DNA of 64,000 nt from Pycnopodia helianthoides. Lineage: Eukaryota; Echinodermata; Asteroidea; Forcipulatida; Asteriidae. Location: contig CM063251.1 of NCBI GenBank assembly GCA_032158295.1, forward strand, positions 21,821,933 through 21,885,932. The letters run 5' to 3'. The translations under genes were made by a program, and so were the position numbers. Below the pieces are notes generated by a model. That model was not told where the DNA came from, did not search any database, and worked only from the letters and a program-made list of their open reading frames with translations. The stretch's first letter is position 1; each line of letters starts with the position of its first letter. This document shows positions 6,390 through 38,100 of this stretch, in pieces.

Positions 6390-6479
6390 TTTGGTCTTGA
6401 GGTTTGCCCCCCCTCAACAGACCCAGGCTACAAATCCTCAGAATGGGACTTTATGGTCAAGCACCTTGTAGTCCCCCCT
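6252..6479 (-). CDS. MYO1B: Myosin-I exon with 5'UTR and start codon
   Basis: A clear acceptor (TTTTTCCACAG) precedes 6479 and a donor GTGAGTGTG follows 6252. The first 90 bases are untranslated (they contain in-frame stops). The ATG at 6389-6387 begins [15 protein letters not shown] and the exon ends at phase 0 after DAEDIY. The acceptor implies at least one non-coding upstream exon at higher coordinates. Confidence 0.88.
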
Positions 6480-6524
6480 GTGGAAAAACAAGACAAATTG
6501 TAATGAAATTAAGACCATCAACAG

Positions 6525-6607
6525 TAGGGCTAGATGGTGGAGCACCAGCATAATAATCCGGAGGTCGCAGGTTCAAATCCCACTCTAGTCAACTTTTCCT
6601 TGTTCAA
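6525..6607 (+). mobile_element. tRNA-derived SINE head (family G)
   Basis: Contains a box-B-like GGTTCAAATCC after GGGCTAGATGGTGGAGCA. Related copies lie in the minus orientation at 17292, 30655, 40634 and 40850. The sequence is not a functional tRNA: there is no cloverleaf and the box A is disrupted. Confidence 0.55.
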
Positions 6608-6722
6608 CCAAACACAAATTAAATTGAACTACCCAAAACACCTTTTGCTACTTTAACTTTTCCTTGTTCAACCAAACATAATTAAATTGAACTAACCCAA
6701 AACACCTTTTGCTACTTTAATT
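6591..6722 (+). repeat. 66-bp tandem duplication
   Basis: Two nearly identical units beginning CTTTTCCTTGTTCAACCAAA and ending CACCTTTTGCTACTTTAA sit head to tail at the SINE 3' side. Confidence 0.75.
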
Positions 6723-7389
6723 TCTTCTTTGAGCGTCAGTAAATGGTTTCAATTAAACTGTAAAGCCTTTCATCAAAATGGGGGAGGGGGTGTTTCCATA
6801 CGTGCGACTTTTACATACAAATAAATTAAATACAGTCCTTCAATGGGCATTTGTTGACAAAATCTGCAGGATTAAATCCGGATGAAAAATCCTTCCTTGT
6901 GTAGTTTCGTTTGGTATGAATGTCTAAAGGCATGTTGTTTTTAAGAACTGTATAAAAGAATTTACACAAAGCTCCTTTTTTTTTACATGAATACACGTAC
7001 ATCATACTTGCTTTATTCTGAGCATGCTTGTCATTTTTATTATCAAGTAAGTTTTGTATAATGACCTAGAAACAAACTATAGTAAAAGGTTTACATATTT
7101 ATTTTATAATTACCCGGGCCACAACAATAAAAAATATGCAACAATTTCATCTCGGACGCAAATGTTGAATCTTCGGCATCCATTAATGAAAACCCACTGC
7201 AAAGTTTGTCTTCAAACCAAAGTAATTAAAACTATAATCCTGCATGCAAGCTATAGTAAAAAGGAATGACAACCCCCTATTTACTGCATTAATTCTTTTC
7301 AGCTCCATAAATCGAGCCCTCCATATTCTAATCAACATTTTACAGCATGTACACACTTTGTGCAAGACACAACAATTGGCAAATACATC

Positions 7390-7653
7390 TTAAAGGGATA
7401 TGTTACCTTGAATTGGGCTCTTTGGGCTATAAAAAAACATTTGTTATGAAATGAATAAGGTCCGCCATTTTGTGTAGTAAAAAAATGTGGTTATAATACA
7501 AAATGGTGGCCTGTGTTAGTTCACAAAGTAAAAGGAAAAACCACACAGTTTTGAGTAATAATTGCGTGGATCGTTATATATTCCATTATTCCATTACATA
7601 AGGAATGCTTTTTATAGCCCAAAGCGCCCAATCCAAAGGCAATGTGCCCTTTT
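7390..7653 (+). mobile_element. MITE, family D
   Basis: Begins TTAAAGGGATATGTTACCTT and ends GCCCAATCCAAAGGCAATGT plus GCCCTTTTA. GGGCTATAAAAA near the left mirrors TTTTTATAGCCC near the right. Copies or parts recur at 40114-40318, near 41960 and at 59090-59268. Confidence 0.65.
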
Positions 7654-9200
7654 AGTGTTATCAAGTACATGGTTTGTATATTATGAATACTGCAAACCAA
7701 CAGGTACTTACAGTCTATTGACCCACTCTATGCAAAGTTCACACTCTTCTGTGATCCTTTATGTTTGGCCTGCAGTTTTTATTGGGCAAATACTTATGTT
7801 ATCACCAGATTCATATCAAACAGAAAAGATTGCATATCAAACCATCCTCCCTTAAAACAAACACAACAAAATAATCACTTGGAATAAGACATACCAAACT
7901 GTGTATGTATACAACACATGTTCCTTGACACCCTTCAGGCATAGTGCTTTAAAGGGCACCAAGACATTTTCTCCTACATGTAGGTAAAGGGCACCTCCAT
8001 GAGAAAGGTGACAATTACTAATGGAATGTTTCAAGGGGCACCATGGCAATGGGCAGGTGCAATGGAGGCAATTGCCTCCACTGCCAGACCTCCAAGTGTC
8101 AGACCTGCAAATGACATGTTATCTATCACTAAACTGATTTTTAAGAACCACTCAAAGTACCTTGCAGTAAGCAGCGATTGTCTTTTAATGGCCAGTATAA
8201 TTTGTTTCACCCTTAATTCGAATCCGTCTTTTGCTTACAATAGACTGTGCAAGTCTTTCGCATATCGAAAATGAAAAAAAACAACTTGAACGAAGTCAAA
8301 TGAAATCAAATCTTCTTTTTGAAGTTCTATTTATACAAAATTTTGGAAAATAAAAATACCCATAGCAATTTGTTATAAATACAATTTCAATTTTCATGTT
8401 ATACAAATAATTTGTTAAAGTTAACAAAATTAAAACTTGGGCAAGGATGCTTGTTTTATAGAAACCCCATTTGCCAATCACGCCTGAATTGCATTGATTT
8501 AGTAATAAAATGAACGTCAGTTGGGCAAAATTCCCTGTTTACAAGAAACCGGAAACAGAGATCAAGTCTTATTCTTGAGTTTTATTTGTTGATTTGCTAA
8601 ATTCATCTTATTTTCATAAATCTCATGGCTAAATTTTACTTTCCCAACAATATAATATCATTCGTATAGCAATAAACTACATTAAACTAAAGAGTTTGAA
8701 GAAACAGAATGGTGCACACGTAAAACCTAGATTGAGGCCAATTTGGTCCCGGAAGTTGGAATACTTGAAAGACTTGCAAAGTCTATTATATGTATGTTAC
8801 TTTCTTTTTTCCTTATTGTTTGTGTTTTGTTACAATGTATAACTTTAATGTGTGTAAAAAAAAAAGCCCCCAAATTTGTTTCCTGTTCAACTTTTCACCC
8901 ACATCAACTAGTTTATGTTGGAGTACATAGCGTTGATTATCGTTTATTGTGGTCATTACCAGAAAAAGTTGTTCCAGTCAAATCCTTAACAAACACAATC
9001 ACAACACCCTGACATTTGAGTAAAGATTTTTGCAGTGTTTACACCTTATAGAATACTGCATGTACATCATATCTAAGTTTCATACAGGAACATATTGGTT
9101 ACTTATTTTAGAATAGTCCCTGGTACTACCTTGGATTTGGAAGTTAATTTAACCACATGAAGCCCCTACATTCTTGACTAGTTTTATGTTTAGGATTATA

Positions 9201-9334
9201 GGCCTGTTAATACTTCACGCAAAAGCAAAGTGAAGTGATTTTTCTTGCGTCACAATTGGAAAAAAAGGAGCGTACTAATTACTGCGTCACAAAAATTCAC
9301 TTTGTATTCACTTTTGCATGAAGTATGAACCGGT
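9201..9334. mobile_element. Small MITE, family M
   Basis: GGCCTGTTAATACTTCACGC at the left and GCATGAAGTATGAACCGGTC at the right are imperfect inverted repeats, extending inward through AAAAGCAAAGTGAA and TTCACTTTTG. Confidence 0.65.
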
Positions 9335-9787
9335 CTTTAGTCATCTATCAGAGCTAACACCACCATCACCAATTAACGTCATCCATCAATACAAGCCTAA
9401 AATCCCAGCTCACTGACCGGCCACACTCCCACTGATAAATGGTGACAGACCCACAAATTCAACCCAAATCAATAACTTCCTGTAATAATTCTCTCTATTG
9501 ATTCGTTAATCCCTGACCTGGAATGCATAACACATGTCCACTCTACCAACCCGAAGTACGCAAAACAGGTATACAGTCATTTTACTGTATGTATATACAC
9601 GAACATTATTGATTCTACCATCAAAAATATGACAAACAATAAAAACAAACTTTGATATTTCTAGAACACTTTGAGGGCCATTAGCAATATTACTTTAAAA
9701 AAAACAGGGTCTGAAACGTGAAATTATGTAAAATCAGGATTATTTTTCAAATTCTCTAAACCAAAATAGCATACAGTGCAGATACTT

Positions 9788-9930
9788 TTAAAGGAAGGGT
9801 ATACCTTTGGTAATTACTCTAAACACGAATGACCATAACATCTTACTAGGTAAGAACATAAAGCAAGGTCCTTGCTCTATGGTAAGAAGCAGCGAAGCTG
9901 TTGGTAATGTGTAACATTTTGTGGATGATA
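9788..9930 (+). mobile_element. MITE family A, 5' fragment
   Basis: Starts TTAAAGGAAGGGTATACCTT and breaks off after GCTGTTGGTAATGTGTAACA. The right end is missing. Confidence 0.55.
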
Positions 9931-10802
9931 CCAATGCCTACATCCTTACGGACTGCGAAGGGGGAACCCAGTTTCAGCCCAAGGAGTAGGTGGCAACGTG
10001 CCCCTGGTGACCTGACAGGTGATTTGGGTTGACAGCCTAAATCAGTTAAATGTAGCCCTCACCTTGAAGTGGCTGTCCGGCCTTCTGGGTAAGGCGATAT
10101 TTCATAAAAATAAAAAATATAAAAACATTATTTAATTTTACACTGGACCACTGGACCGAGGCCAGCGGTTTTAGTGTCAGGCCAGTAAACTCAAATCTAT
10201 GGAGTCATGAAGTACATGTATACTTAATACCCCAAAAGACATGAGATAAATTTTCTCTTACGTGTCTTAGTGCTTGCTCAAATAAAACCAGTTAAATGCA
10301 TGTTAAACTGTGTCAGGAATGTGTGTTTTTTTCGCTTTAGTTCTGGTCTTGTCAAAAACATTTCTGGTCCAGTAAACATTTTGAGCAACGAGCCCTGCGA
10401 TCTTATGGATTTTCCCCAAATATTTGAGCCCTGAATAGAAAGCTTCCACAACTTCAAAACAACTTATTTTTTTTAGTCTTGAAAGGTACCATGTTTCATT
10501 GTGTGTGTGTTTGTGTGTTATTAATAACTATGCTGGTATCACCATAATAGTCTGTGTGCAAGCAAAGAAACTCAACATGTTATACAATAGGCACAATTGC
10601 ACTTTTAAAGGACATCTATGCGAATATCAGTAAACATATGATAACTCAGCCTTGTGTTATCTTTCTTCATGGTTCCACAGATAGATAGCATTTCCTTCCT
10701 CCAATCATAGACTACTGGTAGTTGTCAAACACACAGACTAAACTGTCATATCGACATTGTCAAACAAACAAGAATTATGGGTTTTGAGGCATTGCATGGT
10801 GA

Positions 10803-10846
10803 GTCTCCTGACGATGACTAGAGCAAGCTAGTCGAAACGTTGAGAC
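10803..10846 (+). ncRNA. Hammerhead-ribozyme-like motif, unit 1
   Basis: Reading 5' to 3': stem I strand GTCTC (10803-10807); core CTGACGA (10808-10814), matching CUGANGA; one extra T; stem II GACTAG, loop AGCAAG, CTAGTC (six perfect pairs); GAAA (10834-10837); a minimal two-pair stem III (AC/GT); position-17 T at 10841; then GAGAC, pairing with GTCTC. This is the type I layout with a very short stem III, as known from Penelope-like retroelements and retrozymes, where dimers are the active form. The extra T next to stem II is atypical. Activity is inferred, not shown. Confidence 0.55.
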
Positions 10847-10863
10847 CAAAAAGAACTCACTCA

Positions 10864-10907
10864 GTCTCCTGACGATGACTAGAGCAGGCCAGTCGAAACG
10901 TTGAGAC
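10864..10907 (+). ncRNA. Hammerhead-ribozyme-like motif, unit 2
   Basis: Same layout as unit 1, 61 bases downstream, with identical stem I and core (CTGACGA, GAAACGTT). Stem II carries one A-C mismatch (GACTAG against CCAGTC). Predicted cleavage is after 10902. Confidence 0.5.
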
Positions 10908-11297
10908 CAAAAAGAACTCACTTTGCGGCAGTGCAGTTAATTACGAGAAGTCCCCCCGAACCACAAAGCTAAAGTAGTAGTCCAGGCCGATTTTCTACCT
11001 ACCGCCCAGTTAGTTAATAAGCAGGACAGTTCTTTTCAGAACTGAGAAGTCTCCCGAATTCCAAAAATCTACTCCGCGATAGTAGAATAGCAAGACAAGT
11101 TCTCTAAAGAACAAAATCTACACAGCAAAGTAGATATTTATACACATGGTGTTACTGCAAACCAAATGTATATCAAGAAGGATTATCAATCGATAACCAC
11201 TGCTTTTATTTGGGCTCCAACTTGGGCTCCGGCTTTGTCTGCATGATTGAAGCCCTCATATAAGGAAAGTGCAAATTTTTTAAAATAACTGACAAGG

Positions 11298-11660
11298 TTT
11301 AAAGGCAGGGTATACTTTTGGTAATCACTCCACAAGTTCATGACCATAAAAACTAACTTGGTAAAGAGCACTGGAGAGCTGTTGATAGTACATGTATAAA
11401 ACGTTGTTAGAAACGACTCCCTTTGAGGAAGAAGAGGTCATTTTTCATCCCAAAATTTGAATCTCAGAAAGGCTTCAGGTCTCAGGCATCTGAAAGCACA
11501 CAAATCTGTGCAACAAGTGTGGGTTTTTTCTCACATTATTTTGTTGCAACTTTGATGACCAATTGAGCCCAAGTTTTCACAGGTTTGTTATTTATGCATG
11601 TTGGGATACACCAAGTGAGGATACAAGTCTTTGACAATTACCAAAAGTATATCCCGCCCA
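11298..11660 (+). mobile_element. MITE, family A, near full length
   Basis: TTTAAAGGCAGGGTATACTT at the left and CCAAAAGTATATCCCGCCC at the right. The interior is collinear with the 3830-4185 copy. Confidence 0.8.
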
Positions 11661-17759: not shown

Positions 17760-19634
17760 GACACAATCGTACCTCCATATTAACCAGCAACATCTCCTGC
17801 ATACCTCATAAGAGTTTATAATTTATTATAGAGGTCTTTGATGGATTTTGGAGTAGTTTTTTTCACTTGTTGGGTTTTTTGTTGTTGAATTGAATCTTGC
17901 AAGTGAGACATTTTAACAAACTCGTCAAACTTTTCACTTACAAAAATAAAAATAAAATAAACAAGAACTTTTTTTTAAATCCCGACCTACCGACCTTATT
18001 TCAAAATAGCATGTAACTGGAAACTGAACATTCTTCTGTTCGAAGTTCTGGGTAAATGGTTACAGATATTAAGGAATGGTTGGATGGCATTCTACAATAG
18101 AATATTTTTATTAGCTACATGCATGGATCACTTACTCATAAACAAGTCCAAGGTTTTTGTAATTAAAATCAAATTATAAAGAAAACTATACACAAAGGCA
18201 CGATCAAGTTAGTTTTTGAACCAATTTTGTTTCGAATGAAGTTTGAATCCTACAAAAAGCTAACATTAGACCATTGACTATCAATCTATTCTTAGCATTG
18301 ACATTGTATAGAAGGTGCAAAATGTCGTAAATTATGCATACGGATTTAGCCTATACTAGTATTATTATAGTAACATTGATGGTAAGTGTGTTAAACACTA
18401 AATTAATAATGCAACTTGTTAATAGTTATGTAATACTAATATTAAGGTACCCATATGGATTGGAAACCTGGCGTAATGAAACGTAAATAACTGATTAACT
18501 AACTGAAATTTGACCACACAATTTAAGTTTGAAACTGTCATTGTCAAAAGTGGCAGTAATTTATAAATACAATTGTTTTTATAAATTAATTATTGCCATT
18601 TGCATTTGTGAAAAGTTTTCTTATCTTCATTCACTCAGTCCACTTCCACCCAGCCCAATCATCATGCCAATCTACGCTAATTTTCAGTATTTTTAATTTA
18701 AAAAATCATTGAACTATAATCATAATGGTTAATAAACTGAACTGAAAGTGAACTGTCGATAAACAATGAAATATATATGATATATACATATATATTTGTA
18801 TGTCACATCATTTTTATATAACAAAATATGTCAAAAATCCCAATGAATTTACAGGAACTGTACAATGTACATTGGGAATGTGTACACGAATGATTCACTG
18901 TTCAAATATTCAATCAATCACCATAAACTACGGTAACGTTCAGCCGACAAGGCCACTGCACAAGCACTGAAAAAATACCTACCCAAGAAGGCTGTCTTTT
19001 AAGAAGAGTTTAAACACCAGAAGATGACGATATCTGTCCACATCTGATGGAATAGAACATGCCTTGTTTTCTGACAAATGTGTTTATGTAAGATGACAAT
19101 CTAGGCAAATTTTGAGGCCGTATTGGCGACTAAAATGAAGCCGTACTTCAACGCAGGTGTGTATCCCATGGGGTTTGGGCGTGCAGAGCAGCAGTAGTTC
19201 AGTGTAATGCATTTCACATATTGTGTCCGCATCTGTTGCTTGCACTTCATTCCTGGGGAGGGACCGGGAACCAGTCTACACTTGAAACGTGTAAATAAAT
19301 AAAACTATCTAATGGCACGAGAGGGCGCGCTAAGAAGCAGAGCAGTTTTAGAGGGCGCTTTTATGTAAACAGGAAACAGAAAATAATAATTCAGAAATCA
19401 TTACCTGTCCCGATCCGCGTGACATGGGTAAGGAATGCATTGCAACAGCAAGTGTGTGAACGTGCTCGTAGATGGTTACATCATAATTGTTACATCATCA
19501 CTACTTACGTAAATATTTGTGTGACTAATGTGTTCATTCGAATTTATCAACGTCATCGATCATGATGACAACAAATCAACAGTAACACGTACGTTGTGTT
19601 AGCGAGTAAGTTTGCTTGGGGCGCGGTCCGGAGT

Positions 19635-20105
19635 GGACGTTGGTAAAACGCGGAACGATTGCGGAACGACGGAACGACGGAACGAATAATATACAATGTA
19701 ACAAATCGTATTGCACATACGTAGTTACCATGCCACACAAACGACTGACGAATTTGCTGAACAGACTCCATCGATTCCAGAGTATAATTATAACACTATT
19801 TGAAAATGATCCTTGTACTTACCTGTGCATTTAATTGCTTGAAGAATATAAGGCCCTTAAAATATATTTTATGTGTTTGGTTAATTATTTGTTTATTTAG
19901 CTCAATGGTCCGTCCAACGGAAGGCTCCAGCATGACACTTGACTTACTGACCTCTCTGCAGAAAGAGTGCTGTACAGATCTAGACTGTAAAAAACCATGT
20001 GATATACATGTACATGTACATGTATGTATTTACTGTGTACTCTGTAACTGATGTACATGTACAGACTAAATAGCATGTCACGTGATGTGAGGGGAAATCA
20101 ATGGA
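19635..20105 (+). repeat. Left terminal inverted repeat of the foldback element
   Basis: Begins with GGACGTTGGTAAAACGCGGA and short CGGAACGA iterations. It contains a minus-strand consensus splice donor (19811-19822), the palindrome TCACGTGA near 20080, and ends where the array unit begins. Confidence 0.75.
19811..19825 (-). promoter_or_regulatory. Outward-facing splice donor in the left arm
   Basis: On the minus strand the sequence is ATGCACAG|GTAAGTACAAGG, a near-perfect 5' splice site. The intron would run left, toward the myosin gene. Confidence 0.4.
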
Positions 20106-21137
20106 TGCATAATGCTTTGCGCAATGAAAAAAAGGGGGTACACGGACAGGCAAAATAAACTATCAAGGACGGGTTGCTCCACCAATTCCAATATACCAAA
20201 TTGTTCCTTAAGGTCTCCTCTTTCTTACTAGCTGTCCAAAATAGTGGAGCAACCCGTCACTGGGGTCGAAAAAACTGCGGAACGATTGCTTTAGCGTCTT
20301 TATCCACATTAATCTATTTATTATGTGCAATTTAGTGCGCGAAATGAAACAAAATGAAGGGGGTACATGGATAAGCAAAACAAAATATATCAAGGACGGG
20401 TTGCTCCACCAATTCCAATATACCAAATTGTTCGTTAAGGTCTACTCTTTCTTACTAGCTGTTTAAAATAGTGGAGCAACCCGTCAATGGGCTCGAAAAA
20501 ACCGCGGAGGATTGATAAGAATCTTTATCCAACATTAATCTACTTATTATACGGCAATTTAGTGCGCGAAATGAAACCAAAAAAGGGGGTACATGGACAA
20601 GCGAAAAAAAACTAGAAAGGACGGGTTGCTCCACCAGTTCCAATATACCAAATTGTTCCTTAAGGTCTACTCTTTCTTACTAGCTATTCAAAATAGTGGA
20701 GCAACCCGTCAATGGGCTCGAAAAAACCGCGGAACGATTGATAAGAGTCTTTATCCAACAAAGTAAACATAAAGAATTGCGCGAAATGAAACAAACTTAA
20801 GGGGGTACATGAACAGGCAAAATAAACTATAAAGGACGGGTTGCTCCACCAGTTCCAATATACCAAATTGTTCCTTAAGGTCTGCTCTTTCTTACGAACT
20901 ATGCAAAATAGTGGAGCAATCCATCACTGGGGTCGAAAAAACGCGGAACGATTGCTTAGCGTCTTTATCCAACATTAATCTACTTATTATTATGCGCAAT
21001 ATAATGCGTGAAATGAAACATAGTAAAGGGGGTACATGAACAAGCAAAAAAACTATAAAGGACGGGTTGCACCACCAATTCCAATATGCGAAATTGTTCC
21101 TTAATGACTCCTCTTTCTCACTAGCTATCCAAATTAG
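20106..21137 (+). repeat. Left satellite array, about 4.5 units of 215-227 bp
   Basis: GGACGGGTTGCTCCAC starts at about 20167, 20394, 20619, 20834 and 21060 (the last begins GGACGGGTTGCACCAC). Each unit contains ACGGGTTGCTCCAC and, about 75 bases on, its inverse GTGGAGCAACCCGT, then GCGGAACGATTG, which is also in the terminal repeat. Confidence 0.85.
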
Positions 21138-22375
21138 CAACTGGATGGCAGACCTGATCATGACAGAACAAAACACTGAGCAAAAAGATCATCTGGTATC
21201 TACTTGCATTTAAAGACTTCAAGAAGTGAAAAGACATGCCCAAGCCCTCAGAGTAAAAAGGATTACGATTTCCAGGGATGTTCCAGCAAGCTTTGTGTCA
21301 ACACTTGAGTTTCTTTCGAATGTCACCAGAAGTCTGTTCAGCACCAACCTTTCAGTGGGCCACCTTGGGAAACAATGTACATATCCTCAGAGTAACAACA
21401 GACAGATGGTGTTTTGCGAAGGCGATTGCCAAGATTGGTTCCATGTTGAATGTATAAATAAAGGAGGAAAGTTTCCAAAGCACTTCTTATGAGCGCTGCC
21501 GCTCTAAATAATCCAATACAGCAACAAAGTTTGGCAAGCAGTTTCAATAATTACATATAGTTGCCATGCACATTAGTGGTGCTGCAGGTCCAGACTGTAA
21601 TTCTTGCTATAGCCACATTAGCATGAAAAACTTGATGATTTTTTGAAAATGACATCCTTATATTGCAGACTTGAATGGATACTTTAATCACACGTATTAT
21701 AGCGATATTTGTTGTCGAAAGTTCTACACTTAAATCTGGCTCAGTCCAAAATATTTAACCCCTAGCTGTGTTCCGGAGTTGTACTCAATCCATTTATTCG
21801 TACAGCTTGAGTTTGTTGGATACATTACATAGACCTATAGACCTTCCTGTACTCAGTAAAAGGAACAATTTTGTCACAAAATAAAAATGTTTAATATAGT
21901 AATGTTTTCTTTCACCTTTTTTTATACATTAAATTTAAAAAAGGTATTCAGTATTTTTCATGACGGATCGGTTTATACCTGGAAAGAAGGAAACACAGGG
22001 GAGGCTGCGGAGGATATAGCCGACAAAAGTCTGCAATTACATTTACAGTTGATGTTTCGTCCTACAGCAAAAGCCGTTTTCTTTATTAAAAGTTCAAACT
22101 GTTGTTATTTCTCCCGCAAGGTTTATTTATCGGTCGTTGTTGCCCAAGATCCAAACTAAGGAAAGGATCAGAAGCTGCTTTGGTCTAAATGTAACATCAA
22201 AATCAAGGGGTCAGAATAGTGGTTGATCCGGGAAATTTGACATCATTGACGGAACTCCATCATTTTTAAATGCTGGTGAGATAGAAATATCCTTGAGCAA
22301 CACACCGTATGTATTTGCTTTGTTTTGTTTTCGTTTTATTTTTGATTTATGTTTATTTGCTGGTCCGTGTACCCC
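21138..22375. other. Unique centre of the foldback element
   Basis: Non-repetitive 1.2 kb between the oppositely oriented arrays. It holds the PHD-like fragment (21214-21492) and a 90-codon open frame at 21887-22159 (plus strand) that I do not recognise. No transposase motif is visible. Confidence 0.55.
21214..21492 (+). pseudogene. PHD-finger-like fragment inside the foldback element
   Basis: The open frame between stops at 21211 and 21490 ends with MVFCEGDCQDWFHVECINKG, the C-x-x-x-C...WFH-x-x-C half of a PHD zinc finger. An upstream Cys (QCTYPQ) could serve as an early ligand. The last two Cys ligands are absent before the stop. There is no ATG in this frame after the preceding stop, so it is an exon piece or a decayed gene carried by the element. 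PHD fingers occur in several transposon-encoded proteins; which one this is I cannot say. Confidence 0.35.
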
Positions 22376-24974
22376 CGATACTTTGCTCCTCTATTTTGGA
22401 TAGCTAGTAAGAAAGAGGAGACTTTAAGGAACAATTTGGTATATTGGAATTGGTGGAGCAACCCGTCCTTGATAGATTTTTTGCCTGTTCATAATAACCC
22501 CCTTTATTTTGTTTTATTTCGCGCAATTCTTTGAGTTTACTTTGTTGGATAAAGACTCTTAGCAATCGTTCCGCGTTTTTTTCGTCCCCAGTGACGGGTT
22601 GCTCCACTATTTTGGATAGCTAGTAAGAAAGAACAGACCTTAAGGAACAATTTGGTATATTGGAATTGGTGGAGCAACCCGTCTTTGGTAGTTTTTTTTG
22701 CTTGTCCATGTACCCCCTTTTTTTGTTTCATTTCGCGCACTAAATTGCCGTATAATAAGTAGAATAATGCTGGATAAAGACTCTTAGCAATCGTTCCGCG
22801 GTTTTTTCGACCCCAGTGACGGGTTGCTCCACTATTTTGGATAACTAGTAAGAAAGAGGAGACCTTAAGGAACAATTTGGTATATTGGAATTGGTGGAGC
22901 AACCCGTCCTTGGTAGTTTTTTTCCCTTGTCCATGTACCCCTTTATTTTGTTTCATTTCGCGCACTAAATTGCACATAATATATTTAAGTAGATTAATGT
23001 TGGATAAAGACTCTTAGCAATCGTTCCGCGGTTTTTTCGACCCCAGTGACGGATTGCTCCACTATTTTGGATAGCTAGTAAGAAAGAGGAGACCTTAAGG
23101 AACAATTTGGTATATTGGAATTGGTGGAGCAACCCGTCTTTGGTAGTTTTTTTTGCTTGTCCATGTACCCCCTTTTTTTGTTTCATTTCGCGCACTAAAT
23201 TGCCGTATAATAAGTAGAATAATGCTGGGTAAAGACTCTTAGCAATCGTTCCGCGGTTTTTTCGACCCCAGTGACGGATTGCTCCACTATTTTGGACAGC
23301 TAGTAAGAAAGAGGAGACCTTAAGGAACAATTTGGTATATTGGAATTGGTGGAGCAACCCGTCCTTGGTATGTTTTTTTTGCTTGTCCATGTACCCCTTT
23401 ATTTTGTTTCATTTCGCGCACTAAATTGCACATAATATATTTAAGTAGATTAATGTTGGATAAAGACGCTAAGCAATCGTTCCACAGTTTTTTCGACCCT
23501 AGTGACGGATTGCTCCACTATTTTGAATAGCTAGTAAGAAAGAGTAGACCTTAAGGAACAATTTGGTATATTGGAATTGGTGGAGCACCCCGTCCTTGAT
23601 AGTTTATTTTGCTTGTTCATGTACCCCCTTTATTTTGTTTCATTTCGCGCACTAAATTGCACATAATATAAAAAGTAGATTAAAGTTTGATAAAGACGCC
23701 AAGCAATCGTTCCGCGGTTTTTTCGAGCCCATTGACGGGTTGCTCCACTATTTTGAATAGCTAGTAAGAAAGAGGAGACCTTAATGAACAATTTTGTATA
23801 TTGGATTTGGTGGAGCAACCCGTCCTTGGTAGTTTTTTTCCCTTGTCCATGTACCCCTTTATTTTGTTTCATTTCGCGCACTAAATTGCACATAATATAT
23901 TTAAGTAGATTAATGTTGGATAAAGACTCTTAGCAATCGTTCCGCGGTTTTTTCGACCCCAGTGACGGATTGCTCCACTATTTGAATAGCTAGTAAGAAA
24001 GAGTAGACCTTAAGGAACAATTTGGTATATTGGAATTGGTGGAGCAACCCGTCCTTGGTAGTTTTTTTGCCTGTTCTTGTACCCCCTTTATTTTGTTTTA
24101 TTTTGCGCACTAAATTGCACATAATATAATAAGTAGATTAATGTTGGATAAAGATGCTAAGCAATCGTTCCGCGGTTTTTTCGAGCCCATTGACGGGTTG
24201 CTCCACTATTTTGAATAGCTAGTAAGAAAGAGGAGACCTTAATGAACAATTTGGTATATTGGAATTGGTGGAGCAACCCGTCCTTGATATATTTTTTTGC
24301 TTGTTCATGTACCCCCTTAAGTTTGTTTCATTTCGCGCAATTCTTTATGTTTACTTTGTTGGATAAAGACTCTTAGCAATCGTTCCGCGGTTTTTTCGAG
24401 CCCATTGACGGGTTGCTCCACTATTTTGGACAGCTAGTAAGAAAGAGGAGACCTTAATGAACAATTTGGTATATTGGAATTGGTGGAGCAACCCGTCCTT
24501 GATATATTTTTTTGCTTGTTCATGTACCCCCTTAAGTTTGTTTCATTTCGCGCAATTCTTTATGTTTACTTTGTTGGATAAAGACTCTTATCAATCGTTC
24601 CGCGGTTTTTTCGAGCCCATTGACGGGTTGCTCCACTATTTTGAATAGCTAGTAAGAAAGAGTAGACCTTAAGGAACAATTTGGTATATTGGAATTGGTG
24701 GAGCACCCCGTCCTTGATAGTTTATTTTGCTTGTTCATGTACCCCCTTTATTTTGTTTCATTTCGCGCACTAAATTGCACATAATATAAAAAGTAGATTA
24801 AAGTTTGATAAAGACGCTAAGCAATCGTTCCACGGTTTTTTCGAGCCCATTGACGGGTTGCTCCACTATTTTGGACAGCTAGTAAGAAAGAGGAGACCCT
24901 AATGAACAATTTGGTATATTGGAATTGGTGGAGCAACCCGTCCTTGATAGTTTTTTTGCTTGTCCTTATACCTC
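22376..24974 (-). repeat. Right satellite array, about 11 units, opposite orientation
   Basis: The same unit in reverse complement. GGTTGCTCCACTATTTTG recurs roughly every 215-230 bases from 22597 to 24858. Some neighbouring units share private variants (for example GGAGCACCCCGTCCTTGATA at 23583 and 24702), suggesting block duplication. The long open frames here are repeat read-through, not genes. Confidence 0.85.
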
Positions 24975-25429
24975 GTAAATTGTTTTCCTTCACATCACGT
25001 GACACGATATTCAGTTTGTACATGTACATCCTAAATATACAGAGTACACTTTTCATACATGATCTACCTTACAACGGCGGACGTAATGCAACTTCAGCAC
25101 TTGTTCAGTGCAGAGGTCAGTGAATCAAGTGTCATGCTGGAACCTTCCGTTGGACGTCGTCCATTTTAAACAATTAATTAACCTAACACACAAATTATAT
25201 TTGAAGGGCATGTTTTTCAAGCAATCAAACGCACTGGTAAGTACAAAGGATCATTTTGAAATACTATAAGGACTTCTTTGATCAGTGGAGTCTGTGCAGC
25301 AAATTCGTCAGTCGTTTGTGTGGCATGGTAATGAGAAACTACGTACGTGCAATATGATTTGTTACATCGTATATTACTCGTTCCGTCGTTCCGTCGTTCC
25401 GCTATCGTTCCGCGTTTTACCAACGTCCC
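24975..25429 (-). repeat. Right terminal inverted repeat of the foldback element
   Basis: Inverted counterpart of 19635-20105. It keeps TCACGTGA at about 24996, the CCTTCCGTTGGACG block at about 25143 and a plus-strand splice donor at 25237, with small indels relative to the left arm. Confidence 0.75.
25232..25246 (+). promoter_or_regulatory. Outward-facing splice donor in the right arm
   Basis: GCACTG|GTAAGTACAAAGG on the plus strand is the mirror of the left-arm donor. RNF180's first coding exon has a good acceptor 709 bases downstream (25945), so a non-coding exon ending at 25236 could splice into it. Confidence 0.4.
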
Positions 25430-25945
25430 TCTGGAGTAGTCAAGTCAAGGGCTCCATCCATGATCCATGCTACGACCGTCAAAGCCAAAATTTCAAAAAG
25501 AGGAGTACAGCGCGCGCATTGTTCTTGGGTCGAGCACCTCCATGGGTCGAGGTACAGTAGAACTAGTTTTACCTTCATAAACCAATCAACAATGACATGA
25601 TTGAGGCATGGAGGTAGAAATACCTCCATGATTGAGGTGAAAATTATGATTGAATCATGATCACTGCGTTTTGGAGAAGGGAAAACAATGACGAACTGAC
25701 TCCCGCATTCAAACTGAGTGCCTTCTATTTATCCAAATATAAATATATCGCTAACGGTTGAAAGAAGCCTTCTGTCTCCTGGGTTTAAAATAGTGTCAAA
25801 GTCTATGTCATATATATTTTATACAAGTGTGAATTGATTGACCCTTCCTTTCCTTTACATGCCCTAATTAATGATGGTGAGAGGAAGCAAAAGACATGAA
25901 CTGATTGCTGGTTTATTTTTCTTTCTGATTGTTTTAATTCGACAG
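25430..25945. other. Interval between foldback element and RNF180 coding start
   Basis: Unique sequence with no gene seen. It ends in a pyrimidine-rich tract and acceptor (GTTTTAATTCGACAG) at 25945, implying an upstream non-coding RNF180 exon. Confidence 0.5.
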
Positions 25946-26193
25946 TAATAAACCTTAGTTTTACAATTGAACCACCGATAATGGCATCAGGTGCAAACAC
26001 CCTGCAACAATCTTCCTTCAAGTGTCGCAAGTGTAGACAATTTCTTTTTACTGAAGACAGCGTTCTCCCGTCCACACCTGCCAAAGACTTAAACTTGACG
26101 ACAACCAATCATCAATGGAGTGGCGCTAGTGGTGCATTGTGGTACATCAGTGATGATGCCAGACCATCCTGGATCAAGACTGCAATTGAGGAG
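25946..26193 (+). CDS. RNF180: RNF180 exon: 5'UTR end and N-terminal Cys motif
   Basis: The acceptor at 25945 gives 35 untranslated bases and then ATG at 25981. The 71 codons include [10 protein letters not shown] and [10 protein letters not shown]. The donor GTACTTTTAG is in phase 0. Confidence 0.85.
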
Positions 26194-29100
26194 GTACTTT
26201 TAGGCCCCCAATTTTTTTTTTATGTTTAGTGTCCCTGCCCGCTTCCTTTATTGAGGCCGCCTCCTTTTTTTAATTGTTTTTTTCAAGGATCAATTTTTAC
26301 GATCTTTGATGAAAAAAATCAATTCTAAAATACATACCGAAAAAAACACACAGAAAAAAGCTGGCAACCATCTTGAAAAATAGCCCAGCCGTTTGTCTTA
26401 AAAAAGGTGTCGGGCGGCCATTTAAAAAATATTTTAAAAAAAAGCCTGCCTCCTCCTTTTTTTCAAAAAGACAGGACGCTAAGCATGTCTTTACTTTTAT
26501 TTTGCCTTATCATAAAGGGCAGCTACAGATATGGCAATATAACCCAGCATACATTGTCTAGCAAAAACTGCTTTCAAAGCTCAAACATTTCAATCTCCTG
26601 CTTATTTATCTGAACTTGTTCACCATTTCTCCCCTGCTAGGACTTTACGTTCATCACAACAATCATTGCTTAACACTACTACTAGGGCTTCTTCCATTTT
26701 TTATGGTCAAAGATAATTTTCTTATGCCGCTCCATTTCTTTGGAATAGTCTTCCTGTGCATATTCGCCAGGCTAGTTCTTTACATTGTTTTAAGTCTCTG
26801 TTAAAAACTGGTTTGTTTGAATGTGCTTATTTGTAATCTGCTTACTAGTAATGTTTCTTTCACTTATTGTATATTTTATTGTTCTCTTTATGCGCTTAGA
26901 GACTTCTGCATTAGGCGCTTTACAAATGTCTTAATTATTATTATTATTTATAATATGGGCTAGAAAATACCACTTCTCAACTTGCCCTGTAGGCTACTAA
27001 AAACTATGCAACCTACTTGTTTATAATGCTCATATTTCTTCCTTTTCCGATGTGAATAATACACAAATGTATTAATTTTTGAGTGAGTGAAAGCAACTTT
27101 ATTTGACCATTTAACCGGCTGTGATCGCTACCATTTTAATACATCAGAAAGATACATGTACATTCATGACAATACATGTTTGAGATCTGTGTTATTAAAA
27201 CTTCTCGGGCAAGTAAGTTTACTAGCCCGGTGGGCTACTTTACAACAAGCTTAAGCGCAAGGCCTGTATGGAGTCAGCATTGGTTACTCAAAAATAAATA
27301 TTTCTCAAATTTGTACATGTGTGCCAGACTCCATTCCTTGACAAAATTCTTAAGGATCCGTTAGTGATCAATCTGAAAAGTGGCCTTTGTCCATGCATTT
27401 ACAGCAAAGTGCATTATATTTAAATATTGCTATGCCACATACCACAGGGTAGATCATGGTACTAATCATTAATTGCATGTTTTTTTTTTTTTACAGTCGC
27501 AGTGGACAAGAGGAAAGCTAGCTTGTCCAAAATGCAGAGGTCGCCTTGGGTCATTTGACTTTCTGATCCCTAGCATAAGGCACCATCCGGATCGCCAGGG
27601 GCCATGGTCCAGTGTTCACATCAGTGGGAGTCGTGTTGATCGTGAACTGCCTAAATCTCGACTAGCAAAACTGAGAGGTGGTGTCCGGGAGCAAGACCCC
27701 CAAGTTCAAGATCATGCATCATCCTCCAAATTAAAAGACAGTTCCGAGATGAGTGTCATTAACTTAAATCCAAATGAAGATGGTGCCCTTCCCATAGGTT
27801 CCTGGTACTTGAATACAAATGAGCTGGATTCCAGATCCTGCAAGGATTCTGAAATTGACATAGATGAATCTGTATCATTCTCATTTCCACCAACAAGTAG
27901 GAAAACACCTTCGTCTTCGGTTGAGCCTAAAATCTATAATCAACTTGGGTTTAGGCCAGGCTATAAAAACACAGAGCAATCCAAAACTAGATCTTATGCC
28001 TCTAATGCTAACCCTGTTGGGGAGACACAGTCTGTCTCCTGTAATTCAATGCATAATGGACCATTAACTGATACAGGTAGCACAGACTACTTTTATCGTA
28101 TCCCCGCTGAAGAGGTATCGGATGGCAATACTGAATTGCATTCTTCATGTGGTAGTTTCATTAATTTATCACTGCCATCCAAAGTATCAAGAAACTCACG
28201 ATCACACAATATCAGAACTCAACCAAGATCAAGACCAACCACCCTCCGAACCTCATTCAGGGGCAGCTCATCTGAACAGACTATCCAGAAACGGTTATCA
28301 GTGGTTGATCAAAACACGCTTGATATTGGTAACGAATTGGATTTTCTTGACGAACTCTTGTTGGAGCTGGAGCGAGAGTCTTCATCATTGAGGGCCGAGA
28401 ATGACTTCAACCAGCTTGTTGATGACTTGGACACTTACAGTCAACAAGAGGGTGAGGATAGTTCACACAAAACTCAGTTCAAAACTTAATGTGCGTGTGT
28501 TAATTTAGATCAACATTCTATTAGAGTACATCTAATGAAATTGCATCTGTTCAAGCAACACTCAGGCAAACCCCTTCTCTTATCGATGAGTGTACTGGGT
28601 TCTTTTACATGCATTACACAACACACGGGTCCAACGGCTTTACGTCCCATCCGAAGGTAAATCAATAATGGTTAAAGTGTCTTGCTTAAGGACTCAAGTG
28701 GCAAGACCGGGACCCGAACCCCCACTCTGCTGGTCAGAAACACCAGAGCTTGAGTCCAGTGCACCTGACTACTCGGCCACGACACCCCATAAATACAGAC
28801 ACGACACGTCAGATACAGCTGAACTATGCAGTTTTTAGGTTTGGGTTCCTCATGTTTGCTTATTTCATCTTGTTAGTTGTAAAATAAAACTATGCAGTAA
28901 AATTCACGCCACAAATTTTTGGTGGAAATCCCTTTTCAAAATAGGCGATGCTGAAATGTTTTGGTTTTTGTTTACAAACAATGACGATTGACTAAAACAC
29001 AATTAATGTTTAAACATTTGGTCATCAATATGAAGCTTCTGCAAGTTCAGACAACGATTTCCAGGGTAATGGAACTCATCATAACACCGAGGGGACGTCA

Positions 29101-31378
29101 GCTTACCTGCAACGGGCCATCCTAAGAGCTCAGAAGAAAGAGAAGAATCATCGAAAGAATGAGAAAAGGAAACTGCGAAGACGAGAGAGATGGATGGAAG
29201 AGAAGACGATGGAAGACCATGAGCTCCTGATGGAAGAACAGGTATGCATACCAAGCAACCTAACGATGTTTGTTTCTCATAACCAACATTTCTTCACAAG
29301 AGAGATGAATTCAAATGGTGTCATATTTTCTTACTTCCTTTACTATGCAAAGCTTAAAATCTTAAAGGAACATTACAGAATTGGTTTTTGCTAACAAAAT
29401 AGTTGCTGGCAGTGTAATCCACCATATACATAAACTGACAAACCTGTAGAAGTTTGAGATCGATCGGCCATCTGGGTCACGAGAAAATAGTGAAAAACCA
29501 ATTACACATTTGCATGAAATCATAAAGATTCAACAAATGAATAAAACGCTCACTGAACGATAAACTCCAGTCGGAAAATTAGTTTATTCCTTTCTCATCA
29601 AATATGGCATTTCAGAAAGAAATATTTTGAGGGATGTTTTCTACTATCATCATCATTAAACCGTGTAAGTTTTATGTAAATCTGTGATCAAAAAGTACAT
29701 TTTACAAACAAAATTCTTACCAATTCTGTAATGTTCCTTTAAGGGTCATTTAGAGTTATCAATTTTATAAAATTTTGATCTTTTTACGATCTTTTTTTCA
29801 AATTTGATTTTTAAATATTAGACTATTTAATGTATCCTATACACTGAAGAACAAAGTAATGCCTCATATGAAGCAGATATTTTAAACTAAAATGTTCTCC
29901 CAGCTCAGGAGTTTTCAATGGCTTTTTTGGGCTTCCATCCATGCAACTTTGCTGTTGAGAAAATGTTTGCCGTCTCGCATCGGCACGGATTTCGATTCTC
30001 AAAACAAGGTTGACCAATAACAATAGACAGCACAGATATCACAGACGATTTAAAAAAAACGATAGGTATTTTTCCGCTTACAAATGTTTTATTAATTTTT
30101 TAAAATTTTAATTGTAAACTGAATTTTGATTTTCTGTTATTTCTTTTGACCCACAATTTCCAAAAAAAGTTTTAAACATTTTTAAACATTGATTATTCTG
30201 GATAGCCCCTCTCATTCACACTCTTGATTTCCCATCTTTCCTTCAGAATCTTGACTGCGATTCGGCAAAGATAATGTCCCTCATGAGTGTCCCAGAGTCA
30301 GGTATGTCCCTCCGTGAGGCAACAACGTGCCCAGTTTGCCTGGACTTGTACCTCAACCCCAACGTGTGCATGCCCTGTCAGCACATCTTTTGTGAACCCT
30401 GCTTACGCCAGCTTGCCCAGGCTGTGCAGTCGCCCACTACACCATGCCCTCTCTGCAGAACTGTCATTCAACATGTTAAGGCACATGAAAGTGAGTTCAT
30501 ACAAATCTTGATAATTTTTATAAATCCTTGTAGACCGTGCAACCCTCTCCTTGTTACGAAACCATCCTGCCATCCAAAAAATATTACTCTCTGCATAGGA
30601 GCTAAATATATGTAATAAAATGTCATTCTTTTGCAATAAACTTTTGGGTTGAAAAAAGAAAAATTTACTAGAACGAGACTTGAACCTGTGACCTCCAGAT
30701 TAACGTGCAAGCACTCTACCAACTGAGCCATCTAGCCCTTATGTTGGTATTCTCCCTATTTTGTCATTATCTTTGTTTGGGGTGCCAGTCAGTATAACTA
30801 GGGATCACACAGTTACAGGTTAAATGGCTTCTTACCCAGTCACTTTCCCTTGTGGTTTATAACTTTTGTAATACACGATGGCTGTTCATTTGGAAAAGCC
30901 TACAGTCGCATTTAAAATGGAAAAAGTCTCATTATTAGATTTCATACTGTTTGCTAGAGATAGATTCTATTACTCCCAAGTATATTTAATTAACACTCTT
31001 GAGGTTGTATGGTCTAATGTCAGTAGTTGCTTAAAATAAAAACATGAATTAATATTTTTGTTTGTCTTAGCGCTGACAACTGCAATCCAAGAAGCCTTCC
31101 CCCATATGATAGCCGCCCGCAAACAGAACGAGAGAAAAACACTTAACAAGTCCTACCCTCTCCCTGGTGACGCATTAAACACCCCTACGTCAACATGGTT
31201 CAACCACATGCCGAGGGGTCACACCAGGAGACACAATACAATGGGACTGCACCATTCCAGATGGAGAGGTAGACAAGAAGTTGGGGTGGTGTGGCAGATT
31301 GGGGCAGCCTGTGTACTGATGACAGCTCTTGTTGGGCTTACAGGTGTTTTTCTGTCTTCTATCATGCTGTATTCATGA
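25981..31378 (+). CDS. RNF180: E3 ubiquitin-protein ligase RNF180 (Rines), complete
   Basis: RING-type E3 ligase, tail-anchored in the ER or nuclear envelope. Five exons join in frame: 25981-26193, 27497-28451, 29051-29241, 30247-30490, 31071-31378 (636 codons). In order they encode an N-terminal CRKC and WIK...[21 protein letters not shown] (paired Cys motifs, as in vertebrate RNF180), a long Ser-rich linker, a basic helix ([14 protein letters not shown]), a RING-HC (CPVCLDLY...[10 protein letters not shown]...CPLC), the [17 protein letters not shown] block and a C-terminal hydrophobic segment ([20 protein letters not shown]) ending nine residues before the stop. Vertebrate RNF180 is about 590 residues, so this is slightly longer, mostly in the linker. 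The order and motifs leave little doubt. Confidence 0.93.
26573..26945 (+). mobile_element. 3' end of a CR1/L2-type LINE in RNF180 intron 1
   Basis: One frame reads [29 protein letters not shown], stop, [36 protein letters not shown]. This is the conserved C-terminus of non-LTR reverse-transcriptase ORFs, with one TAA where Ser is expected. It is followed by AGGCGCTTTACAAATG and a TTATTATTATT tail, so it is a 5'-truncated, dead insertion in the sense orientation. Confidence 0.8.
27497..28451 (+). CDS. RNF180: RNF180 exon: second Cys motif and Ser-rich linker
   Basis: A 14-base T-rich tract plus TTACAG precedes [19 protein letters not shown]. The frame runs through a low-complexity Ser/Asn/Asp linker. 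I place the donor at GAGG|GTGAGG (phase 1) because it joins the next exon in frame. Without splicing the frame stops at 28489, giving a RING-less protein. Confidence 0.85.
28558..28788 (-). mobile_element. tRNA-Ser/Leu-derived SINE (family F) in RNF180 intron 2
   Basis: Read on the minus strand it begins GTGTCGTGGCCGAGTAGTCA (box A) and has GGGTTCGGGTCCCGG (box B), then the family body ending near AAGGGGTTTGCC. Four other copies in this window share the orientation. Confidence 0.75.
29051..29241 (+). CDS. RNF180: RNF180 exon: basic coiled region
   Basis: Acceptor TGCAAGTTCAG, then DNDFQGNG and the charged helix [20 protein letters not shown], matching the RRERW block of vertebrate RNF180. 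Donor CAG|GTATGC, phase 0. Confidence 0.85.
29362..29742. mobile_element. MITE, family O, in RNF180 intron 3
   Basis: TTAAAGGAACATTACAGAAT continuing TGGTTTTTGCTAAC is mirrored by ATTCTTACCAATTCTGTAAT continuing GTTCCTTTAA, flush with TTAA on both sides. Confidence 0.8.
30247..30490 (+). CDS. RNF180: RNF180 exon: RING finger
   Basis: Acceptor TTTCCTTCAG. It encodes the whole RING-HC: Cys pairs CPVC, PC-x-H, FC-x-x-C and CPLC, with all eight zinc ligands present. Donor GAAA|GTGAGT, phase 1. Confidence 0.93.
30655..30795 (-). mobile_element. tRNA-derived SINE (family G) in RNF180 intron 4
   Basis: The minus strand reads GGGCTAGATGGCTCAGTTGG, TAGAGTGCTTGCACG, GGTCACAGGTTCAAGTC. Boxes A and B are both good. 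The shared tail TATTCTCCCTATTTTGTC is at the plus-strand right. Confidence 0.7.
31071..31378 (+). CDS. RNF180: RNF180 last coding exon: tail anchor
   Basis: Acceptor [29 protein letters not shown] is the family signature; the hydrophobic anchor and a TGA at 31376-31378 end the protein. An AATAAA at 32381-32386 is a candidate poly(A) signal about 1 kb downstream. Confidence 0.9.
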
Positions 31379-31502
31379 CTGCAATATTGTGCCACTTCAA
31401 AGTGTTGACAAAAGGGACCTCTGTGTACCTTTTGGGCACAAATTCTCAATTGGGCAATAATGCTTTTTTCTGTTAGTTACTTATAATAATCTTTAGTGAA
31501 AA

Positions 31503-35192: not shown

Positions 35193-38100
35193 CTGTGAGT
35201 GGGTGATGAGGTCATAAAACGAGAGATATCAATAGTTTCAATTAAGCCAAAACATCTAGCCCAGTTTCATAGAGCCACTTAGGCAAACAATTTTGCTCAA
35301 CAATTTTCCCCATGCAAAACTTAGCAGGAAACCAGTTACTGACAGTACATGTGGAATGGTATAGTAACCTTATCCTGGTAAGCATTTTGGTTCAGCTACT
35401 TTTTGTGCTTAAGCAGCTCTATGAAATTGGGCCCCAGTTTTTACAAAAATCATTTAAACATAGCATACAAAATTATGAAAATATTCAACAAACATTATTT
35501 TAAAAATCTGACCCACCTATCTTATTGTTTTAGCCCATTAAGACAAACATACTTTTATTTTAATACATTATAAACACCCAAGAAGAATAAAACAACAAAT
35601 TTCTTGCTGTGTAACATTTTTCCCAAGTTGAAAGATCTTGTCAATTACCCCTATCAATATTTGGCAACACTTTCACACCACTGTGAGCTTACCTTGTGCA
35701 GAGAAATGCGAGGCTCTCCTAAGCAGCTCTTCTTGGCTGACAACCCAGTTAGCATCACCAGGATTGTCCCCATCTGCCTGACGGAGGTTAGGGGCACTCT
35801 GGACTCCAAGCAACCCCTTACTGCTCTTGTCTTGCTGATGGTCTGAAAATGAAACAGGTAAATGTACTTTGCAACAATTTCATTTTTCAGGGATGAGATT
35901 TGAAAATATTCCTGAAAATGACTTGTTGGGTCAAGGTTCCCACTTATTCAAGACCCAGACTCTCCCAGACGTTTACAATTCAGGAGGTTTGCAGACTCTG
36001 TGCATCACCAGAGAAACAAAACTACAGGTTTTGACATAATATGAACGATTTCTGTTGCCCTTTTGGTGGCTGTTTTACTTTTTCTAGAAAATTGAAAGGC
36101 TCCAGGAGATTTAAAGAAAATCCCGAAATCAGGAAAATCCTGAGAAATCACACACCTGAGCTTTTGCAGTAGGGGTGGGTAAAATTTTCCTCAGTCAGGT
36201 GTACTCCATTTGGAGAATGCCTCTTAGCTTTGGGGACAGCTACAGTATACTGCATTATCAGTAATAGCTTCATTTTTCAAAGCGGCCCCAGAATTATTGT
36301 GAAATAATAAGGTGCAGCCTCAATAGACCCCTTGCATATGGTGCCACAAGACCCAAACAGTGCCCTCACTGAGGTCAATGTAGACCAATCATTAGCTGAG
36401 AGTTTTGCACGGAGTGTACACGCATGCACCTTTCCATTGTTTCACCTCACCAATGACGGCCAATGCAAGTGGTCTATACCAAGCATCCACATTACAGATT
36501 TTCTCAAGCTTTCAAGCTACATTGATTGAGGCTTGTTTCATACTTCGCCCCAAAACGAGACAAGTGAATCAAATTTCCTCCCACAAACATTGGGAAACCA
36601 GCATGTACAGATTGTCTACATTATTATATATTTCTGGTAAGGAAACCAAGGATGCCTCATAAGTGAACTTAATCACTGTAGCTCGCAAGCCAGAGGAAAC
36701 CTGTTAACAAGGGTGCTTGCTATGTGAACCAGAAACACTGGGGTTAACCCATACTCTTCAACGATAAGTGTTCTTGGTTCTTTTACGTGCACTACCAATC
36801 CTAGTACATGGGACCTATGGCTTAATGTCCCATCCGAAGGACAAAGCAATTATGGTAAAGTATCTTGCTCAACGACACAAGTGCCACGACGGGGACTCGC
36901 ACCCACACTCTGCTGATCAGAAACACCAGAGCTTGAGTTCGGTCATGACAGGCCACATCATGAACCTTTGCTTCGCAAGTTTGTATAACTACCTTTCTAG
37001 TTTCCTTATCAGAAACGTGTAACAATAAAATGCACAGCATACCCTTTAATGACAAATCATCATGCTCAGCAATGTCTGTCAGTGTGTTGAAGCTTGCCCT
37101 TGAGGGAATAGATGCTGGTCCAGAACTGGGTCGACTACTCTCTTTAATGCTGATGCCAACTCTCATGCTAGGTACTTCCATCCTTGTGTCTAAATCCCCT
37201 GTCAATGTCATTCCTGCCTTCCTCTCCCAGCTTTCTTGGTCCAAGGCAGTCTCAGATGATGTAGGGGTGAAGTCATCGTTGTTCACTGTGCACTGAGGAC
37301 TGTCACTGGTGGTTGTAATATTGCTGAATGTCGAGTCCTCATCGTTTTCGGAAAGTGGGTCTGTTGGTGAACTGTCTCCCTGGTTACAAGGAAAAGAGCA
37401 ACCAATATTTATTCTTCTGTGCAATTCTACGACGACCCAGTTACAATGATCACAGGTGTCAGAAATCTGCATTTCCGAATGATTTTGGTGATTTCATATG
37501 ATATCTAGGGTTGGGATGTTTAACCGCTTGACTAGGGTTGATAAGATACCTAGGGTTGGGATAGTTAACCGGTTAACCAGGGTTGATATAATATCTAGGG
37601 TTGGGCTATTTAACCGGTTAACTAGGGTTGATATATCTAGGGTTGGGATATTTAACCGCTTGACATGGGTTTATACGTCTAGGGTTGGGATGTTTAACCG
37701 TTTAACCGTTTAACCGTTAAACTGTTTAACTGCAAACAAACAATGAAATCCTATTTAACAGTTAAACGAAGGCGACAGTTAAAAAAAAAAAATTCCTTTT
37801 TCATTATACAAATGTTAGCCCCAGACACTATCAGGGAGAATGATTGACATCCCTTCTGTTAGTGGAATGTTTCTTATCTTAATCTGTTACAAATTTACAT
37901 TATTTTTAATCCCCTACAATTTCTTCTACATTTTGCTATGTACTCCACCCCACTGTGGTTTATGGTTAAGACTAGGTTACAGACTTCTATTTTTAATCCT
38001 ATAAAGGAGTATCCTACAACCATCTTGAGTTGCTACTTTGCAATATGTCTTTCTTTCAACAAACTTACATCCTTACAGACAGACCGATAACCACCGAATG

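Follow-up and report, generated by a model that had tools for sequence, protein, structure and literature searches.

A foldback element with unequal tandem-array arms in Pycnopodia helianthoides, probably a deletion derivative of a Mutator-superfamily transposon

Is a 5.8-kb palindrome of tandem arrays a mobile element, and if so, what moves it? The question is raised by a locus of the sea star Pycnopodia helianthoides that lies within a 64,000-nucleotide stretch (C9:21821933-21885932, hereafter the window) of a 479-Mb, 742-contig assembly; the window has a G+C content of 38% and contains no N. Our analysis indicates with high confidence that the structure at positions 19635-25428 of the window (5794 bp) is a non-autonomous, internally deleted foldback transposon of the cut-and-paste kind, belonging to the Mutator superfamily (Mutator-like elements, MULEs) and most probably to its Rehavkus lineage.

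The element is ordered as terminal domain A, array A, core, array B, and terminal domain B. The terminal domains, about 480 bp long, are inverted repeats of each other (19627-20133 against 25435-24951 in a local alignment with a score of 524), and domains A and B are 81% identical across their first 480 bp. Both ends of the element read GGACGTTGGTAAAACGCGGAACGAT inward. Tandem Repeats Finder (TRF) reported a 227-bp period with 4.5 copies for array A (20127-21137) and a 230-bp period with 10.8 copies for array B (22543-24972), where a 455-bp dimer period extends the call to 22383-24972. That the two arrays are oppositely oriented is evident from minus-strand BLASTN matches of 83-91% identity, the longest of 1534 bp, which is far above chance. 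These results bear out a preliminary description of the locus, which had reported two terminal repeats of about 450 bp facing each other and opposed arrays of the same unit (about 4.5 against 11 units); the span that it gave, 19635-25429, is correct except for its last base. The two arms consist of different unit subtypes, and the 9-mers that flank the element, GTCCGGAGT and CTCTGGAGT, agree at seven of nine positions. The features of the window element are as follows.

19626-19634, no strand: left target-site duplication GTCCGGAGT, adjoining the terminus and matching the right copy at 7/9 positions
19635-20126, plus strand: terminal domain A, which starts with GGACGTTGGTAAAACGCGGAACGAT and has four CGGAACGA subrepeats (inverted-repeat alignment)
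20127-21137, plus strand: array A, about 4.5 units of 215-227 bp, types D-L-A-G (TRF, unit typing)
21138-22382, plus strand: core of about 1.24 kb, made of the 3' end of a transposase gene and a 3' non-coding stretch; its deletion is common with 14 other cores
21130-21489, plus strand: transposase 3'-end remnant, residues 967-1086 of 1093, with one in-frame stop (tblastn, PF00628)
22383-24972, minus strand: array B, with about 11.4 units (215-231 bp) whose types, read inward from the terminus, are B-A-A-F-C-B-C-E-C-E-I (TRF, unit typing)
24973-25428, minus strand: terminal domain B (inverted-repeat alignment)
25429-25437, no strand: right target-site duplication CTCTGGAGT (flank comparison)

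The strongest evidence for mobility comes from other copies. A search of the assembly with the array returned 173 matches, and those listed were grouped by hand into 20 entries, the window included. The same genome therefore holds at least 19 further copies; copy numbers are lower bounds, since only the best candidates were scored. C17, which has two cores, was counted once. Both ends could be located in 17 insertions, and 16 of these are flanked by perfect 9-bp target duplications, the window being the sole imperfect case. Among the 16 perfect insertions, no common sequence was apparent by eye in the 9-bp flanks of different loci. In 13 of the 17 insertions, the outermost 25 bp show no deviation at either end. 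The three remaining entries comprise C396, which leaves its contig, C16, whose ends were not found, and C4a1, whose left flank is that of C4a2. One insertion, C3b (L020, C3:9598493-9604584), has no core at all: its arrays join head to head within one unit, precisely at a 15-bp inverted repeat of that unit, and a perfect 9-bp duplication lies outside. Overall, long inverted ends with tandem subrepeats, together with dispersed copies bearing target duplications, identify the family as foldback elements.

We found a candidate for the mobilizing gene in two long copies, C11 (C11:8915138-8938458, 23.3 kb) and C4auto (15.5 kb). The open frame in C11 has 1093 residues from stop to stop, with the first methionine at residue 38 (L011:3172-6450), and matches the Pfam families MULE (PF10551, E 4e-10) and Ulp1/C48 (PF02902, E 6e-13). 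In C4auto the same gene occupies two frames that overlap, and it is altered towards its C-terminal end. When the protein was aligned with ten relatives, D298, D364, and E480 fell in invariant or nearly invariant columns, and a C-x-C...C-x-H stretch at 621-631 was likewise conserved; we read the former as a putative DDE catalytic set and the latter as a probable SWIM motif, for which the relative P0005 has a match just under the cut-off. A PHD finger scores above the cut-off in four of the eight relatives scanned (P0002, P0004, P0005, and P0020). For an N-terminal CG-1 domain, the same eight relatives gave matches above the cut-off in P0020, P0023, P0033, and P0034, matches below it in P0002 and P0004, and none reported in P0001 and P0005; Pfam did not report it in the C11 frame either. 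Organisms named for the relatives include Mytilus edulis (P0004), Clavelina lepadiformis (P0033), and Didymodactylos carnosus (P0015). NCBIfam yielded 0 matching families, and exact-pattern scans of viral contigs gave 0 matches. About 5.7 kb of the C11 core (positions 5863-11557, L010-L011) is absent from C4auto, with no obvious inverted repeat at the printed ends of this stretch.

The window retains the end of this gene. Positions 21130-21489 match C11 residues 967-1086 (tblastn, 85.8% identity, E 1.2e-60, one in-frame stop) and take in the last part of the C48 match and the greater part of the PHD finger, which in the window scores 25 bits against a cut-off of 24 (PF00628, E 1.9e-5). Because the core matches these residues, the PHD fragment is the end of the transposase gene and not a captured host gene. 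The PHD-like fragment previously reported in the core is thus real, while the core itself is not the unrelated unique sequence that it had been taken for, and the identity of the fragment with the C-terminal part of the family's own transposase had gone unremarked. Used as a lone query, the PHD piece returned 18 candidates, none of which was scored. Since the long copies hold the gene and the PHD piece of the window matches its end, the window copy is best understood as a non-autonomous deletion derivative of a Mutator-superfamily foldback transposon.

Could a transposase of another superfamily, P-type as in Galileo or hAT, have moved a foldback element that had captured a PHD piece? The foldback form is known with various transposase classes (PMC3169594, PMC3688188). 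We nevertheless regard this explanation as highly improbable, as copies with the same ends contain a MULE-C48-PHD frame with which the PHD piece is collinear, and the 9-bp duplication falls within the 8-11 bp of MULEs (PMC6446971). A Pfam scan of the C11 frame detected no P-type or THAP domain up to E 1. Assignment to the Mutator superfamily accordingly rests on a MULE DDE domain in a full-length relative with the same ends and on the length of the target duplication.

Several observations weigh against this interpretation. No spanning empty site was seen when the joined flanks of the 17 insertions were compared with the 310 kb searched. The window's duplication has two mismatches, yet in both terminal domains the window element is 100% identical to C12; it may have undergone conversion from another haplotype or have been rearranged later. 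The assembly is doubtful at two related loci, whose unit counts we do not rely on. Of these, C4a (L021-L024, C4:15087714-15111176) consists of two near-identical tandem copies that include the left flank and have unlike arm lengths, and these may be two haplotypes that the assembler set one after the other; at C17:4164345-4179271 (L029-L030) the array stretch between the two cores is full of small deletions, like unpolished long reads. The PHD match of the C11 frame (residues 1049-1090) reaches 16.5 bits and E 0.0088, below the 24-bit cut-off. The long copies may not be the source that mobilized the window copy, because their domain B is just 89.3% identical to that of the window. Finally, CGCGGAACGATTG or a one-base variant is present in most window units, and the same 13 bases begin 14 bp inside the terminus in domain A; this 13-bp identity between terminal domain and unit is suggestive and not proof, since 2 of 500 shuffles also attained 13.

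The imperfect flanking 9-mers, the doubtful assembly at related loci, and the empty site not seen would also suit an immobile structure, be it host satellite DNA duplicated locally in inverted orientation or an artefact of assembly, which the preliminary description had reserved for the case that no other copy or empty allele existed. At least 19 further copies with the same ends, and perfect duplications in 16 of 17 insertions, make such an origin of the window element extremely improbable. For the family as a whole we reject a local inverted duplication or pure artefact, as its copies share their ends and differ in their flanks.

Within the Mutator superfamily, the closest published match is Rehavkus, for which PMC6446971 describes a 9-bp duplication, a transposase with a PHD finger, and a minisatellite that precedes the 3' inverted repeat. 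The Pycnopodia family has the same duplication length, a PHD finger, and terminal tandem arrays, here at both ends. The likeness is one of published traits. The two differ in unit length and in size (15.5-23.3 kb for the long copies here), and the inverted repeats of Rehavkus measure 26-400 bp, compared with about 480 bp for the terminal domain of the window and more when the arrays are included. Rehavkus, represented by Rehavkus-1_TC from Tribolium castaneum, serves as the MULE outgroup in PMC6446971, where its hosts are arthropods and annelids. A MULE outside Rehavkus, from a separate CG-1/MULE/C48/PHD lineage that reached this architecture independently, is a tentative alternative to which we give appreciable but lesser weight: the relative P0020 unites CG-1, MULE, C48, and PHD, and the available descriptions of Rehavkus mention neither C48 nor CG-1, whereas the 9-bp duplication, the PHD finger, and the terminal tandem arrays are all published Rehavkus traits.

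Tetris of Drosophila virilis is an architectural twin. It likewise has a terminal domain, tandem units of about 220 bp within its inverted repeats, and a stretch (37 bp) common to terminal domain and unit; its duplications are 8-10 bp long, and one allelic pair has three and four units (PMC4079207). In contrast to the family described here, no coding copy was found for Tetris, and Tetris builds long satellite arrays (PMC4079207), whereas we saw no long satellite array of our unit among the matches listed. Similarly, Tm1 of root-knot nematodes combines foldback composite inverted repeats, a 9-bp duplication, and a MULE (Phantom-like) transposase, but its units are 13-15 bp long and its 496-residue protein bears a FLYWCH domain (PMC3169594). 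Galileo shares long inverted repeats and, in one subfamily, tandem units of about 210 bp, but has a P-type transposase with a THAP domain (PMC3688188, PMC3573991). Since Rehavkus, Tetris, Tm1, and Galileo show the same plan or features of it, we consider the kind of element to be already known; in the available literature, judged by titles, opening lines of abstracts, and selected passages, we found no description of a foldback family whose long member unites MULE, C48, and PHD. The resemblance to known foldback elements noted at the outset therefore stands as far as form is concerned, with MULE/Rehavkus and Tetris rather than the P-type Galileo as the nearest relatives. The sea urchin TU and Drosophila FB elements are alike in foldback form and have much shorter units than the window element.

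Comparing copies revealed how the family has diverged. We extracted twenty cores (two from C17 and none from C3b; identities exclude gaps). Fifteen of these, 1275-1279 bp long, have the window's deletion, three of 2072-2073 bp carry an extra insert, and the long cores measure 16.6 kb (C11) and 11.0 kb (C4auto). The 18 shorter cores are 97.6-100% identical to one another; against the corresponding part of C11 and C4auto, their identity is 90.2-90.9%. The window core is 99.8-99.9% identical to those of C12, C22, and C4a (99.8% for C12). As for the ends, 14 of 17 other entries have a domain A that is 99.2-100% identical to the window's (99.8% in C11), with C7a at 96.6%; domain B is 99.1-100% identical in 13 of 18 other entries, with C1a at 97.9% and both C11 and C4auto at 89.3%. 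The minima of this comparison are depressed by the rows of C3b, whose orientation is arbitrary without a core, and of C4a1 and C16, whose A end and B end, respectively, were not found.

Within a copy, domains A and B are 76.1-81.3% identical (17 copies with both ends). The 81% identity in the window cannot serve to date its insertion, since each end is conserved across copies and the gap between A and B is similar in every copy. The same pattern, with each end kept across copies while A and B differ within them, suggests that the arms are inherited largely as separate lineages. Typing of 391 units (C17 omitted) gave a consistent picture of the arms: in 15 of 18 entries the first unit of arm A is of type D, and in 15 of 18 its last unit, next to the core, is of type G; in arm B, B, A, F, C, E, and I are the main types in the shorter copies, and S, T, H, and N those in C11 and C4auto. 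Of 311 units, 253 had their nearest relative in another copy, 48 within their own arm, and 10 in the other arm (a count that omits C17, C11, C4auto, and C4a1).

Arm lengths, by contrast with cores, vary widely: when units are counted by anchors, with partial ones included, the arms of single-core copies that have both ends comprise 3 to 22 units. C3a and C21 have 2.07-kb cores that are 100.0% identical after rounding, with one 1-base length difference, and yet their arms count 7 (A) and 9 (B) units in C3a and 22 (A) and 17 (B) in C21. C1b and C19 are one two-unit block apart in arm A, with 8 of 13 paired units identical to the letter; between the window and C12, arm A differs by two units and arm B by one, and 7 of the 14 units that pair are identical. 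These three comparisons show that unit number changes by whole units between copies whose cores have hardly changed, in keeping with the ongoing array change that the unequal arms had first suggested.

The unit itself is 215-231 bp long in the window, and every unit bears its own 15-bp inverted repeat, GACGGGTTGCTCCAC...GTGGAGCAACCCGTC. This repeat is perfect in 249 of 372 units in which both of its arms were detected (C4a1 and C17 omitted). Since the changes listed affect one side only, nothing points to a hairpin under selection, and we discarded a conserved hairpin as a candidate feature. The inverted repeat, the 13-bp terminal motif, the flanking 9-mers, and the arm-specific subtypes had all escaped the preliminary description.

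These observations suggest the following scenario. A full-length relative would supply the transposase in trans; the enzyme most likely recognizes the terminal GGACGTTGGTAAAACGCGGAACGAT, pairs both ends, cuts at the GGACG ends, and inserts the element with a 9-bp stagger. The CGCGGAACGATTG copies in the array units may act as secondary binding sites, by analogy with Galileo, whose transposase THAP domain bound extra sites within tandem repeats (PMC3688188). The gene was lost once, except for roughly its last 127 codons, and the deleted form then multiplied. Faulty gap repair may have caused the deletion; short stretches common at the junction, noted by eye, are compatible with it. The arrays grow and shrink by whole units or small blocks, the arms independently of each other and the outermost and innermost types mostly kept, possibly through unequal exchange or through repair at transposition. 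In Galileo, too, tandem units were gained and lost separately at either end (PMC3573991). A bolder proposal, which we think rather unlikely, is that the act of transposition sets array length anew, for instance through slipping gap repair between transposase sites, while the core is copied faithfully. If true, each insertion would gain its own pair of arm lengths, and the family would be a device that rewrites its number of binding sites with every jump.

Tetris and similar foldback elements were, in the available descriptions, reported without a transposase. This assembly holds the whole set, namely a MULE-C48-PHD gene in long copies, a deletion form grown numerous, and duplications that fix the ends. 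In a single genome, it links the 220-bp-array architecture directly with a MULE protein that bears a PHD finger. With unit numbers that differ and cores that are near-identical, the first steps from a transposon end to a satellite-like array can be read copy by copy.

Elsewhere in the window, two 61-bp tandem units at 10802-10922 contain CTGACGA...GTCGAAAC, which we take to recall a hammerhead-type motif; Rfam, at gathering scores, listed nothing at these positions. At 37496-37730, a tandem 45-bp unit containing TAGGGTTG is followed by GTTTAACC repeats that are telomere-like in look only. Weak matches to the tRNA family lie on the minus strand at 30665-30737 and 40864-40924 (30.8 and 32.1 bits) and are possibly tRNA-derived repeats. 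An open stretch on the minus strand at 38902-39279 matches histidine phosphatase branch 2 (PF00328, E 1.9e-11). Shortly to the right of the element, on the plus strand at about 26000-31400, start the exons of a probable gene, presumably RNF180-like, with a RING finger at 30193-30612 in Pfam.

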